Assembly: GCA_019695095.1 (NCBI GenBank)
Contig: JAIBAQ010000038.1
Span: 1 to 39,684, forward strand
Direction: 5' to 3'
Origin: Candidatus Hydrogenedentota bacterium
GTDB lineage: Bacteria; Hydrogenedentota; Hydrogenedentia; Hydrogenedentales; SLHB01
DNA: 39,684 nucleotides
The position numbers were made by a program, and so were the translations under genes. Position 1 is the stretch's first letter. Each line of letters begins with the position of its first letter. The notes beneath the pieces were generated by a model. The model worked only from the letters and a program-made list of their open reading frames with translations, ran no database searches and was not told where the DNA came from. Below, in pieces: positions 20,359-26,029 of the stretch.

Positions 20359-20949
20359 TCAATCCAATACGCGATAGTCGACGGTCTGGTAAGCGCCGCC
20401 GTCCAGAAATCGTGCAAGCATGAACAGCGTGTCGCTGAGCCGGTTCAAGAAGACAAAAATGCTCTCGGCTCGAAACTCAGGATATACCTCTTTCACGCGC
20501 ACGACGCAGCGCTCGAGGCGGCGGGCGATGGTCGTGACGACGTCCATTTGCGCGGCGAGCGGATTACTCGCGGACACAATGAATTGCTTGGGGAGCTTCA
20601 CCCGCCCTTCGAGGCGCGCCTGGAAATTCTCAAGTGTCTCGATGTGCTTTTGAGAGAGTTCCACGGCCCGATACTCCGGGTGCTTGTCTTCGGGATCGCT
20701 ACACGCGGTACCGATCACGAAGTAAACGTGCAGAAGCCACAGCAGAAAGGCGTCGATCGAGTCCGCATCCTCAGGCTGCACAGCTTGAATCGCCTGGCGC
20801 ACCAGCGCCGTCTGTGCGCGCAACTCATCGACCGCGCCGGTACAATCGATTATGACATGCGACTTCAACACATCGTCGCCGCCAAGCGTGGACGTGTGAC
20901 CTTGATCGCCTCGTTTCGTTGTAACCTGTGACCGCTTCAATTCGCTCAT
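20359..20949 (-). CDS. PduO-type corrinoid adenosyltransferase-like protein
   Basis: A 196-residue protein resembling PduO/MMAB ATP:cob(I)alamin adenosyltransferases (PF01923), which form the Co-C bond of adenosylcobalamin. The N-terminal motif TTKRGDQGHTSTLGGDDVLK matches the TKxGDxGxTxLxxG ATP-binding segment. The C-terminal RRLERC and FLNRLSDTLFMLAR match the family's RRAER and YLNRLSDxLF blocks. The middle PGG...LHxART segment is diverged (SASNPLAAQMDVVTTIA), so activity or substrate may differ. ATG 20949 is chosen because it overlaps the exonuclease stop by ATGA; an in-frame start lies 24 bases earlier. No other cobalamin gene is present. Confidence 0.78.
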   Translation of the reverse strand: MSELKRSQVTTKRGDQGHTSTLGGDDVLKSHVIIDCTGAVDELRAQTALVRQAIQAVQPEDADSIDAFLLWLLHVYFVIGTACSDPEDKHPEYRAVELSQKHIETLENFQARLEGRVKLPKQFIVSASNPLAAQMDVVTTIARRLERCVVRVKEVYPEFRAESIFVFLNRLSDTLFMLARFLDGGAYQTVDYRVLD

Positions 20950-21713
20950 GCAACCGCCAGCGAGACCGGGCAATGGTCCGATCCCATCACGTCGGCGTGA
21001 ATTCGCGATGATTTCACGCGCGGCATGAACTCTTCATTGACACAATGGTAGTCGATTCTCCAGCCGACATTCTTCTCGCGCGCGGCGGAACGGTACGACC
21101 ACCACGTGTAATGATGCGGGTCCGGCGTGAAATGGCGGAACGTATCGACATAACCCGCGCTCACAAACGCATCCATGCTGGCGCATTCCTCGGGGTAGAA
21201 CCCTGGACTGTCGCGGTTGTCCTTCGGGCGGGCAAGGTCAATCTCCTTGTGGGCGATGTTGTAGTCGCCACAAATCACAACGTGTTTGCCCGCCTTGCGC
21301 AGCTTGTTGCAGAGCTTCAGCATGGCATCGCAAAACGCCAGTTTGTAATCGATCCGTGCGCGCTCCGCCTGAGAATTGGGGTAGTACGCATTGATGAGCG
21401 TGAAGTCCTTGAACTCGAGCACCTGCACCCGGCCTTCATCATCGAATTCCTTGATGCCCATTGGCTTGACGGAAAGTGGTTCGCAGCCGGTTCTATAAAA
21501 GGTGGCGGTGCCGCTATAGCCCCTCTTCACGGCCGAATGCCACACGCTGCCGTAGCCCTTCGGCTCGCGGAGCGCGGGCTCCACGTCGCCCTGACACGCT
21601 TTCGTCTCTTGCACACACAACACGTCGGGACGTTCCGCCGCCATCCATTCGAGAAATCCCTTGCGGCCAATCGCCCGAATTCCGTTTACATTCCAAGAAT
21701 AGAGTTTGATCAT
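20946..21713 (-). CDS. xth: Exodeoxyribonuclease III (AP endonuclease, ExoIII/EEP family)
   Basis: A 255-residue DNA repair nuclease that cuts at abasic sites and degrades 3' ends, in the cytoplasm. WNVNG (N8, N10), QETK with metal-binding E36, NAYYPNSQ, GDYNIAH (D150, N152) and GSDHCPVS (D246, H247) give the whole active site. Length is normal for the Xth subgroup, and the start MIKLYSWNVNGIRA is the usual N-terminus. It is the first gene of a two-gene unit, overlapping the adenosyltransferase start by four bases. The functional link between the two is not obvious. Confidence 0.95.
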   Translation of the reverse strand: MIKLYSWNVNGIRAIGRKGFLEWMAAERPDVLCVQETKACQGDVEPALREPKGYGSVWHSAVKRGYSGTATFYRTGCEPLSVKPMGIKEFDDEGRVQVLEFKDFTLINAYYPNSQAERARIDYKLAFCDAMLKLCNKLRKAGKHVVICGDYNIAHKEIDLARPKDNRDSPGFYPEECASMDAFVSAGYVDTFRHFTPDPHHYTWWSYRSAAREKNVGWRIDYHCVNEEFMPRVKSSRIHADVMGSDHCPVSLAVA

Positions 21714-22064: not shown

Positions 22065-22093
22065 TTGAAAACGGGACCGTTTGCTGGTACGAT
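22065..22093 (+). promoter_or_regulatory. Sigma70-type promoter of the ECF sigma gene with operator dyad
   Basis: TTGAAA at 22065-22070 and TACGAT at 22088-22093 are separated by 17 bases. Within the spacer, AAACGG-GA-CCGTTT (22069-22082) is a perfect 6-2-6 dyad overlapping the -35 end, as expected for a repressor or autoregulator site. The start of transcription would be near 22100. Confidence 0.6.
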
Positions 22094-22102
22094 TTGGGTG
22101 GT

Positions 22103-22114
22103 GGGAATATTCCC
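22103..22114. promoter_or_regulatory. Perfect 12-base palindrome at the predicted transcription start
   Basis: GGGAATATTCCC is a perfect palindrome starting about 10 bases downstream of the -10 hexamer. This is a typical operator position. No regulator that binds it can be named. Confidence 0.45.
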
Positions 22115-22182
22115 GAAGGTCTTAAAGCTCGGTAGGCCGCATTGCCCACTTTTGCGGCGCCCGGGTAGGTGAAAGCGCTAGT

Positions 22183-22791
22183 TTGGCTGATACCGTACAA
22201 GAGACTCTCCCTCGATCCCCGGAATTCGAGAAGCTCGTTCTGGAGCACATGGACATGCTGTACGCCGTGGCTCTGCGGCATACCCGCAACACGGCAGACG
22301 CGCTGGACTTGACCCAGAACACTATTCTCAAGGCTCTTCGGTTCCACGGGAAGTTCGAGAAGGGGACGTATATCAAGGCATGGTTGCTGACCATTCTGCG
22401 GAACACGTTCATTAACGAATACCGCAGAAAGGCGCGGCGTCCTACGTTTGTCGAACTCACTGGCGCAGAGCCCGCTGTCGATACCTCTCCCGATCCGGAC
22501 ATTCGCTACGAGCCAGCCAATCGGTCGTCATCCGAAATGATGGAACTGCTGGATGACGAAGTGAAGAAGGCGGTCGAAGCGCTTCCCGATGATTTCCGAC
22601 AGGCGGTGGTCATGGCGGACCTGGAAGACATGTCCTACAAGGAAATCGCAGAGAAGATGAACTGCCCGCTGGGAACGGTCATGTCCCGGTTGTACCGCGG
22701 TCGCAAGCTTTTGCGCGAGCAACTGCTGGATTATGCGAAAAGCAAGCGGCTCGTGACTGGCGATATCGTCGAAGACCCGGATTCGAACTGA
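22183..22791 (+). CDS. ECF-type RNA polymerase sigma factor
   Basis: A 202-residue sigma factor of the extracytoplasmic-function class. Region 2 spans about 18-90 and includes ALDLTQNTILKAL, the usual DLVQET position, and WLLTILRNTFINEYRRKAR. A linker of about 45 residues is rich in acidic and proline residues. Region 4 spans about 130-185 with ALPDDFRQAVVMADLEDMSY, KEIAEKMNCPLGTVMSRLYRGRKLL as the helix-turn-helix. The start is TTG 22183, as no ATG or GTG occurs in frame between the upstream stop (22123) and region 2; a weak TAGGTG lies before it. No anti-sigma gene is next to it, which is unusual for the class. Its targets are unknown. Confidence 0.93.
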   Translation: MADTVQETLPRSPEFEKLVLEHMDMLYAVALRHTRNTADALDLTQNTILKALRFHGKFEKGTYIKAWLLTILRNTFINEYRRKARRPTFVELTGAEPAVDTSPDPDIRYEPANRSSSEMMELLDDEVKKAVEALPDDFRQAVVMADLEDMSYKEIAEKMNCPLGTVMSRLYRGRKLLREQLLDYAKSKRLVTGDIVEDPDSN

Positions 22792-22879: not shown

Positions 22880-25800
22880 CTACTTCAACATCGCCTCAAT
22901 GGCCTTGCCAAGCAATTCCCTGCGATCTTCAAGTGGGGCAGGATCGGTCGTAAAACTGGTCGTCGACGAAGTGATTTCATCGGGCACTTCAAGCAACTGC
23001 TCGAACCCCGCCAATGCCGCCGGGTCGATGCCCTTCTTCTTGGCTTCACCGATTAGCCGCCTCAGGATCACGAAGTACTCGTAGTCCTCCACACCATCGC
23101 GCAACATTTCCAGGCGAATACTCGACACCGGCCCTTCCATAATCGCTTCGGCTTGGCGTCCGGTCGCGGCTTCGGGAGGATAGATGAACCGGCCGTCTCC
23201 GTTACCCCAGGGGATACGCGCCCCGGAAGGCGTACCGTAACCGGTCGTCCATCCCATCGGGTCTTCGTAGGGGTTCTGAGGCGCGGAAGGATCGGGGTAT
23301 GCGGTCGGACTTGACCAGTAATTGGACTGCCACACGAGTATGCCGTCGATCTTGCGCTGCCACGTCTGCCACAACCACACGCGCAGGTCCATCGCGGGGT
23401 GATCGATGAAGAGCGTGCAATAGGGTTCCTTGGGTCCGGTGCATATGTACCACCAGAACTTCTCGCCGAAAGGCCTCCGCTGCTCGGCCTGTTCCATGCT
23501 GAAAGCATCGGATATCGGGCACCAGATGTTTGGGCCTCCAATGAGCGCCTCTTCGACCTGCTCAGTCAGCATGCGGTTAATACCCGGAGCGGCCTCCTGT
23601 ATCTTCCGGAACCCGTTCATCACAAACTCGTAGTCCTTGGGATCGGGTTCGTCGAACCAATACACGTACGCCTCATCGAGCCAGCCGTTCGCCTTCAGAT
23701 GCTCTTCGACCTGCTTGCAGTAGGAGGTGAACGCAGCCTTGTATTCGGGTGTGTTCTCCGCGTAATCAAGCAATGACGGCTCTGTGCGCGAATGAAAGGT
23801 CCCGCCTCCCATGCCGACGATGGGAATCGTGAACGCATTGAAGCCATACACGTCTATGGCCTTCTTCATGGCGGTATCCCATGCTGTCCAGTCAATCACG
23901 GGACTGAATGCGGCTTCGATATCCTTGGTCTCGCCTTTCTTGTAGGCTTCCACGCCGGGCCACGTGACACCAAAGGGATCGAGCGCGGCGGGAACCATGG
24001 GCGAAATGTGATGTGTACTCAGTTCCTTCAAATACAGGTCCAGCAGAACGTGTTTCTGAGCAGGGTCGTCGACTCGGTGGTACTGGAAAACGCTTCCGGC
24101 GTCGAAACCGAACGTCGTGACACAGCTCATGCGTGCGGGCAGATCGAAATCGAACACTTCCACGCGAATGGGAGCGGTATGCTCGTAGCCGTCGGCTGTC
24201 AAGTGCAGGTTTCCGGTATATGCCCCTCCAGGGATGCCCGCCGGTACATTGACTCGAATCCAAATCGGCTGATTGGCGCCCATCGGCACGTCGATTGGCC
24301 CGGTGAGCGGTGGCAAGGGATCGGGCCAAGGAGCGGCAACCCCCAATTTGTCCGTGGGATGCGTGACCTGCACATACCGCACGCGCAACAGCTCGATGTT
24401 CTCTTTGGGAATGAAAGCTCCATTGGGGCCATTCAGCGATGCAGCGGAGATCTTCAGATTGCGCAGATTTACCGTCGGCGAAATGACCAATTGGACGGCC
24501 TCGCTCTCGTTGCGCGCTGCTTGGACCACCAGCGCATCGGTGGAAACGGTGGGAACAGGACGGTCCTGGCTTACTTTCCACCCCGACGACGCCGCCCACA
24601 ATCCCACTTCCACGGAAGAGGTCGGCAGATGAGCACCGTAGGACGATTCAAAAAGCATGGAGACGGTGAACTCCGTTTCCATCCGGAACGCGATCGCGTT
24701 TCCAAGACTAAGTTGCATCGAGAACTTCCCGCTGTCCTTCAACGTATACGGGAGTCTAATCTCGTTCGCTCCGGGAGCGAGCGTTACCTGACGGATCAAC
24801 TTCAAAGTTTGCCCGCCGGACTCAGGCACGATTTCGAGATAGGGTATGGAGTAGAGAGGGCCCGTGGTTTTGTTTACGGCCCTGGCAATCAATTCGTTTT
24901 CAGGCCCGGGGCGGCACGCACCCAACGAGAGAATCGCTACATCCACACGCGGATCGGTTTCTTCGATGGCAACGTACTTGGTACTGCCTTCAAGCTGCAC
25001 GGGGGCCCCGTCGAGAGTTGCCTCCACGGAATACCCGCTTAGCACAAATGCGGCGGAGCTGTCTGTACCTTGCTTTGGACGCGCTGCGAGGCGTATCCAG
25101 ATACGCTCCGCAGGCAACATGTCGGCAGGCAGATCGAAAGACTGTCTTACGTTATCCCCGATGACGCCCAATTCGCGCCATTCACCCTCGCGAACGCCGG
25201 CGTACACCACCAACTCTCCCGCGGCATATTGCGAAACGGAGGGAATAACGCGGAATTGGGTAAGCTTGCGTCCCGCGATTTCGTGGACGTAGGTTACGTA
25301 GGAGTCTGTTGCGAAATTCCAGCGATTGGTGTTGAAGAAGCAACTCTGATGGGCCAGCGAGCGGCTGTGATTGGTATTTAGACTGCTATAGGGAGCGTCA
25401 AACGTGTAAGCGTTTCCCAGAATCCGCTCGCCATCGCCCAACGCGATATCGCCTTCTCGCCGGTATACCGGCTGCGCGAGTGTAAGTTCGACGTCATCGA
25501 ATTCCATCGTACCTTCAACGTGCCACCCGCCCAGGGCAATGCGCGATTCATATCCCTGGGGCATCTGAGCGGGCGTAATGAAGACGTTGGAGTAGCTCTG
25601 CCAATCCGAGTTCATCACACCCAGATCCTTGTTCGCCGCTCCGAATCGAAGTATGGCCGTGCCGTTCTGCACGTCGACGCTGCGCGCGAACGCTTTGAGA
25701 ACGTACAGCGTGTTAGGCAGAAGTGTGATTTCGTCCGAACTCCAAAAAGAGAAGTCGTCGCCGTTTCCCGTAACCGTCACATACCGTCCGCGATCCGGAT

Positions 25801-25984
25801 CGCTGCTTTTCCAGTCGCCCGATGCGCCCGGCGACAACGTCCACCCACCCGGGGTCGTGCCTCGACCCTCATTGAACGTGGAATTGCGGACTTGCGGCGC
25901 CTGCCCGAACCCGGCCGCGCACACGGCCGCAAACACGACGGCCGTCACGAGAATCCGTCCATAGTCCCCCCTGGAATGCGGCAT
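22880..25984 (-). CDS. Large secreted GH123/DUF4091-type glycoside hydrolase
   Basis: A 1034-residue protein with a signal peptide (ILVTAVVFAAVCAAGFGQA). The N-terminal part is beta-rich, with a carbohydrate-binding-like domain at about 25-170 (WTLSPGASGDW...FDDVELTLAQP) and two further sandwich domains. The C-terminal half is a GH123-like (PF13320, DUF4091) barrel. It begins after the conserved IPGGAYTGNLHL linker, contains AYVYWFDEPDPKDYEF with the acidic pair D778-E779, and ends in RLEMLRDGVEDYEYFVIL, a family hallmark. Characterised GH123 enzymes are beta-N-acetylgalactosaminidases. ATG 25984 is preferred to GTG 25990 because GGGAG sits eight bases before it. It lies 45 bases downstream of trkA on the same strand. 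Confidence 0.85.
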   Translation of the reverse strand: MPHSRGDYGRILVTAVVFAAVCAAGFGQAPQVRNSTFNEGRGTTPGGWTLSPGASGDWKSSDPDRGRYVTVTGNGDDFSFWSSDEITLLPNTLYVLKAFARSVDVQNGTAILRFGAANKDLGVMNSDWQSYSNVFITPAQMPQGYESRIALGGWHVEGTMEFDDVELTLAQPVYRREGDIALGDGERILGNAYTFDAPYSSLNTNHSRSLAHQSCFFNTNRWNFATDSYVTYVHEIAGRKLTQFRVIPSVSQYAAGELVVYAGVREGEWRELGVIGDNVRQSFDLPADMLPAERIWIRLAARPKQGTDSSAAFVLSGYSVEATLDGAPVQLEGSTKYVAIEETDPRVDVAILSLGACRPGPENELIARAVNKTTGPLYSIPYLEIVPESGGQTLKLIRQVTLAPGANEIRLPYTLKDSGKFSMQLSLGNAIAFRMETEFTVSMLFESSYGAHLPTSSVEVGLWAASSGWKVSQDRPVPTVSTDALVVQAARNESEAVQLVISPTVNLRNLKISAASLNGPNGAFIPKENIELLRVRYVQVTHPTDKLGVAAPWPDPLPPLTGPIDVPMGANQPIWIRVNVPAGIPGGAYTGNLHLTADGYEHTAPIRVEVFDFDLPARMSCVTTFGFDAGSVFQYHRVDDPAQKHVLLDLYLKELSTHHISPMVPAALDPFGVTWPGVEAYKKGETKDIEAAFSPVIDWTAWDTAMKKAIDVYGFNAFTIPIVGMGGGTFHSRTEPSLLDYAENTPEYKAAFTSYCKQVEEHLKANGWLDEAYVYWFDEPDPKDYEFVMNGFRKIQEAAPGINRMLTEQVEEALIGGPNIWCPISDAFSMEQAEQRRPFGEKFWWYICTGPKEPYCTLFIDHPAMDLRVWLWQTWQRKIDGILVWQSNYWSSPTAYPDPSAPQNPYEDPMGWTTGYGTPSGARIPWGNGDGRFIYPPEAATGRQAEAIMEGPVSSIRLEMLRDGVEDYEYFVILRRLIGEAKKKGIDPAALAGFEQLLEVPDEITSSTTSFTTDPAPLEDRRELLGKAIEAMLK

Positions 25985-26029
25985 GGTCACTTCTCCCCTC
26001 TCGCTCCAGTCCCCCGGTCACACTGGTTC

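Follow-up and report, generated by a model that had tools for sequence, protein, structure and literature searches.

The promoter of a stand-alone ECF sigma factor gene in Candidatus Hydrogenedentota carries, just past its predicted start, a palindrome, GGGAATATTCCC, that has been kept in relatives while the bases on either side of it have diverged. We consider it probable that this palindrome is the operator of a separate symmetric, probably dimeric protein, which would repress the housekeeping-type promoter of the gene. Two equally perfect inverted repeats lie within 50 bases at this promoter, and only one of them survives comparison with relatives.

The sigma factor gene and its neighborhood

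The window, by which is meant the whole stretch of 39,684 nucleotides that was analyzed, is contig 38 in the 6.77-Mb assembly of a Candidatus Hydrogenedentota MAG. The sigma factor gene (22183-22791, plus strand) begins with TTG and encodes 202 amino acids carrying sigma domains 2 and 4 only (Sigma70_r2, PF04542, residues 18-86; Sigma70_r4_2, PF08281, residues 126-177), as is characteristic of an ECF sigma factor. A possible ribosome binding site, AGGTGA (22167-22172, plus strand), can be read 10 nt 5' of the start. TTG or GTG, not ATG, is likewise the apparent start codon of many orthologues. SigH of M. tuberculosis is the nearest solved relative (E = 4.6e-40), and TIGR02947 (SigH_actino) is the top NCBIfam model, with a score of 164.9 bits that lies below the curated cut-off of 251.55 for membership. 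Of 60 Hydrogenedentota genomes, nearly all have an orthologue, at 53-86% identity. A 42% relative is also encoded by a MAG titled Bifidobacterium breve (L091), where it ranks among hits from Gemmatimonadota and Ignavibacteria; this title is probably a mislabel.

The flanking genes, for exodeoxyribonuclease III (20946-21713) and a GH123 glycoside hydrolase (22880-25990), both lie on the strand opposite to the sigma gene, and no anti-sigma gene is found beside it in the window, in agreement with the earlier note, which had described a lone sigma factor. Among relatives, neither a conserved small downstream partner (reading frames of at least 80 aa) nor a conserved neighboring regulator gene was found. 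The neighbors that do recur are TrkH/TrkA-like and GHMP-kinase-like proteins, named by sequence inspection rather than by family scan.

A conserved housekeeping-type promoter

A promoter scan placed a -35 hexamer, TTGAAA, at 22065-22070 and an extended -10, TGG-TACGAT, at 22085-22093, both on the plus strand. The -10 hexamer TACGAT itself occupies 22088-22093, 17 bp from TTGAAA, and is preceded by TG; the promoter scored 9 of 12, and its predicted transcription start is at ~22100. Orthologues of the sigma factor were drawn from 60-68 genomes and from named records, and their upstream regions were anchored on the promoter pattern. In 44 of these regions a single pattern, TTGA-N17/18-TGnTAnnAT, was observed, with N18 in 35 and N17 in 9 (the window included). 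It stands at a similar distance from the gene throughout, the median to a fixed codon downstream being 124 bases. The TTG of the -35 is invariant and its following A is present in 42 of 44, and at the -10 the TG is found in 43-44, the TA in all 44, and the AT in 42-44; these counts are biased upward at the scored positions, because the 44 promoters include near-copies and the pattern search also served as the anchor. The promoter-to-gene spacing and the repeated TGCTAGGAT/TGGTACnAT had already been seen before anchoring.

The window promoter thus combines a TTGACA-like -35, a spacer within 16-18 bp, and a TGnTATAAT-like -10, and is, as predicted from these elements, of the housekeeping sigma-70 type with an extended -10. 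The earlier note had called TTGAAA-17-TACGAT an ECF sigma promoter; the letters and their place before the gene were confirmed, and the pattern is kept in the 44 orthologues, but the promoter is not of an ECF type.

Further features were observed in the leaders of relatives, between promoter and sigma gene. GGGGGA occurs there in 14 of 40 relatives (L039, L040, L041, G009, and G021 among them) against 3.4 in shuffles, is absent from the window, and is perhaps a ribosome-binding or leader element. In L039 and L041, two tiny frames, MCPAG-V/L-TL and MKALP, form a chain in which stops overlap starts and whose end is the TTG of the sigma gene, perhaps a sign of translational coupling; a similar frame, VKEVR, lies just upstream of the sigma start in L040. 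The close relatives L077 and L078 have differing palindromes at the same place, ~56 bases past the -10 (GGGAATACTCCC; GCGGGATTTTCCCGC), which may represent a hairpin with paired changes.

Conservation and arrangement of the palindrome

The palindrome GGGAATATTCCC is at 22103-22114, corresponding to approximately +3 to +14, and is conserved in eight genera of two families. Relatives carry a 16-bp form, TCGGGAATATTCCCGA, to which the window matches in 14 of 16 positions at 22101-22116. The string GGGAATATTCC(C/T) starts 14-21 bases past the first -10 base in the window and in L039, L040, L041, L043, L072, G021, and G009, with L043 carrying the variant GGGAATAATCCC in its place. The six nearest rows on the sigma tree, and likewise L043 and L072, depart from the dyad at one position at most. 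Across six non-duplicate diverged rows, the 12 columns of GGGAATATTCCC showed 92% pairwise identity, compared with 25-28% in the flanks on either side; because the dyad itself served to align the rows, the 92% is partly built in, and the telling point is that the flanks only a few bases off show no residual similarity. A palindrome conserved above its flanks at promoter positions is what would be looked for in an operator, and the perfect, operator-like palindrome that the earlier note had placed at the predicted start was in this respect borne out.

Of 40 promoter windows, 6 contained the 11-mer GGGAATATTCC, exactly and in either orientation, where shuffles gave 0.01. The dyad clusters on the sigma tree, its distribution requiring 6 changes where shuffled labels gave 11.1; a count as low as 6 did not arise in any of 500 shuffles, and in the nearest well-supported clade all six rows carry the dyad. 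It is also found at the sigma gene in a more distant family (f4), where L075 has three copies, G049 has one, and G027 has one adjoining the -35 together with a 28-bp perfect palindrome, TGCCGTTCGGGAATATTCCCGAACGGCA, at the start. For G027 the link to the sigma gene is drawn from contig ends: the site-bearing contig stops ~170 bases on, and the sigma gene opens the end of another contig. Multiple copies were seen elsewhere, with two in L072, 23 bp apart, and extra part-copies in G021 and G009, covering the -10 or lying 5' of the -35; spacings of 21-23 bp and 33-34 bp recur in several relatives. Two weak rows have the dyad at other places (L051, near the start codon; L077, far downstream), and the dyad is lacking from the promoters of many more distant orthologues. 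Three of the more distant ones, L059, L062, and L067, contain repeats of TATTCC in the spacer and immediately past the -10, which may represent the same putative operator in degenerate form.

Confinement of the palindrome to one gene

Within its own 6.77-Mb genome, GGGAATATTCC occurs once. When up to one mismatch was allowed, the 16-mer gave six sites in 25 family genomes, five of them upstream of the sigma gene, and the 20-mer GTTCGGGAATATTCCCGAAC, with up to two mismatches, was found at the sigma gene only in 68 genomes. Looser matches to the dyad are commoner than those to a reversed control, which differs in base-step make-up. A wider dyad regulon was considered and rejected: 53 sites were counted in the genome at three mismatches, where ~25 are expected for random bases, and the reversed control is compositionally unlike. 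The stronger non-sigma sites that were inspected lie mostly within coding sequence, and one in G013 (L189) is intergenic, ~30-50 bp 5' of a radical-SAM-like frame, and is not supported by relatives.

To our knowledge, the dyad sequence matches no known bacterial operator. Literature searches on the dyad and on Hydrogenedentes sigma factors returned nothing relevant, and the single structural paper found to contain GGGAATATTCCC deals with eukaryotic heat shock factor (PMC8379338).

The AAACGG inverted repeat

The second inverted repeat, AAACGG-GA-CCGTTT, is at 22069-22082. Its letters are present as the earlier note had given them, but rather than lying inside the spacer it starts within the -35 hexamer, whose last two bases are its first two. 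Every relative has at least four mismatches to it, and the columns beneath it are 28% identical among relatives, as different as random. In its own genome, AAACGG-CCGTTT sites with up to one mismatch number 22, against 42 for the reversed control.

Dinucleotide shuffles served as the control for a count of perfect inverted repeats in the window (arms of at least 6, gap of at most 4). The window holds 63, against 53 in the shuffles, and has 2 pairs of repeats no more than 50 bp apart, where the shuffles averaged 1.97, so that the argument that two such dyads in 50 bases are unlikely by chance does not hold. GGGAATATTCCC stands above chance because it is conserved, which the AAACGG dyad is not; the check that had been proposed for both, that they be kept better than flanking bases, separates the two in the same way. 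AAACGG-GA-CCGTTT is judged from these comparisons to be a chance or species-private match and not an operator.

Proposed mechanism and alternatives

In the reading that we propose, the stand-alone ECF sigma gene is driven by the housekeeping-type extended -10 promoter, and the palindrome at +3 to +14 would serve as the operator for a symmetric, probably dimeric protein whose gene lies in another part of the genome. We infer a sequence-specific symmetric protein because the palindrome is unchanged amid diverged surroundings and is arrayed around the promoter. Recognition as DNA is favored because copies 5' of the start cannot act as RNA and because the sequence is constant without paired changes. 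The bound protein would most likely repress, blocking polymerase binding or escape, since the dyad covers the first transcribed bases and, in multi-copy relatives, also the -10 and the bases around the -35. The amount of sigma factor would then be set by relief of repression and not by an anti-sigma factor. Against such an operator count the lack of a conserved regulator gene beside the sigma gene and the many distant orthologues without the dyad. A factor with a single strong target and without self-control is, moreover, unusual, which counts against a separate regulator.

Control by the encoded sigma factor itself is possible, although we think it unlikely: each arm of the dyad would be a -35 of the ECF sigma, and its own holoenzyme would bind there and block or modulate the housekeeping promoter. 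HrpL holoenzyme, which blocks the promoter of its own gene, is a precedent (PMC8999054). The consensus of SigH is GGAAYR-N17-GTT (PMC4803200), and each arm, GGGAATA, includes GGAATA, the SigH -35; the recognition helix of the sigma factor is near-identical to that of SigH, its nearest solved relative (GTVMSRL-x-RGR), and 14 of the 40 promoter windows, rows without the full dyad included, contain GGGAATA or TATTCCC, where shuffles gave 0.9. However, no -10, whether GTT or any common triplet, was found at a fixed distance from the arms. Of 62 upstream regions, only 2 had a SigH/ECF12-type promoter (GGAAYR-N17/18-GTT), where shuffles gave 0.67, and that of the window was neither of the two; GGGAATA-N15-18-CGTT occurs only three times in its own genome, where SigH-type promoters are not enriched. 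SigH-type autoregulation was therefore rejected. Self-control also leaves unexplained the full palindrome, with its outer TTC...GAA, and the 28-bp form. A narrower version, in which the palindrome is two opposed -35 elements at which the holoenzyme docks without a -10 as a dedicated self-repressor, is doubtful.

The dyad might instead work in the mRNA as a 5'-end hairpin, for stability or translation control. Its position coincides with the predicted 5' end, and an 11-bp stem could form from the 28-bp palindrome of G027, but the copies 5' of the start (in L075, G021, G009, and G027) are not transcribed from the sigma promoter, compensatory changes are absent, only four pairs form in the window, an Rfam search of the promoter region gave no match, and as a single strand the leader has an unremarkable fold (z = -0.07); such a hairpin is improbable. 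Tight dual control by two real operators, as had been suggested earlier, fares little differently. Both dyads are perfect and at operator-like positions, but this proposal falls away because AAACGG-CCGTTT is missing from all relatives and not enriched in its own genome, and close repeat pairs are expected by chance, making dual control very improbable. That the whole arrangement is chance finds some encouragement in how common perfect repeats with 6-bp arms are in the window, but it is hardly credible given the contrast in identity between the GGGAATATTCCC columns and their flanks, and it is already refuted for the promoter and GGGAATATTCCC. An operator for a separate dimeric repressor is the reading that we prefer.

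Comparison with known systems

The palindrome is a defined site at which control of the sigma factor can be tested, and its regulator could be fished with one short DNA bait. Nearly all Hydrogenedentota sampled carry this ECF sigma factor, and the phylum is represented here by uncultured genomes only. In having a symmetric site at +1 and further copies 21-34 bp apart in relatives, the putative operator resembles those of dimeric helix-turn-helix repressors that bind a palindrome at the transcription start. The sigma factor itself is like the SigH/SigR group in its nearest solved relative, its best model (TIGR02947), and its nearly identical recognition helix, but unlike that group it scores 165 against a cut-off of 251, has no anti-sigma gene, and has no SigH-type promoter at its own gene.

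ECF sigma factors that are transcriptionally regulated without an anti-sigma factor include HrpL (ECF32), S. coelicolor SigE (ECF39), and some ECF12 members (PMC8999054), and a sigma factor controlled in this manner is thus of a known kind. As in those cases, the gene described here stands alone, and its own promoter is apparently the point of control. The dyad site and its gene-restricted conservation appear to be unreported in the literature searched. Whereas the HrpL, SigE, and ECF12 cases use a response regulator, a sigma-54 activator, or TetR/PadR-type neighbors (PMC8999054), the Hydrogenedentota gene has a sigma-70-type promoter with a putative operator at its start and no regulator gene nearby.
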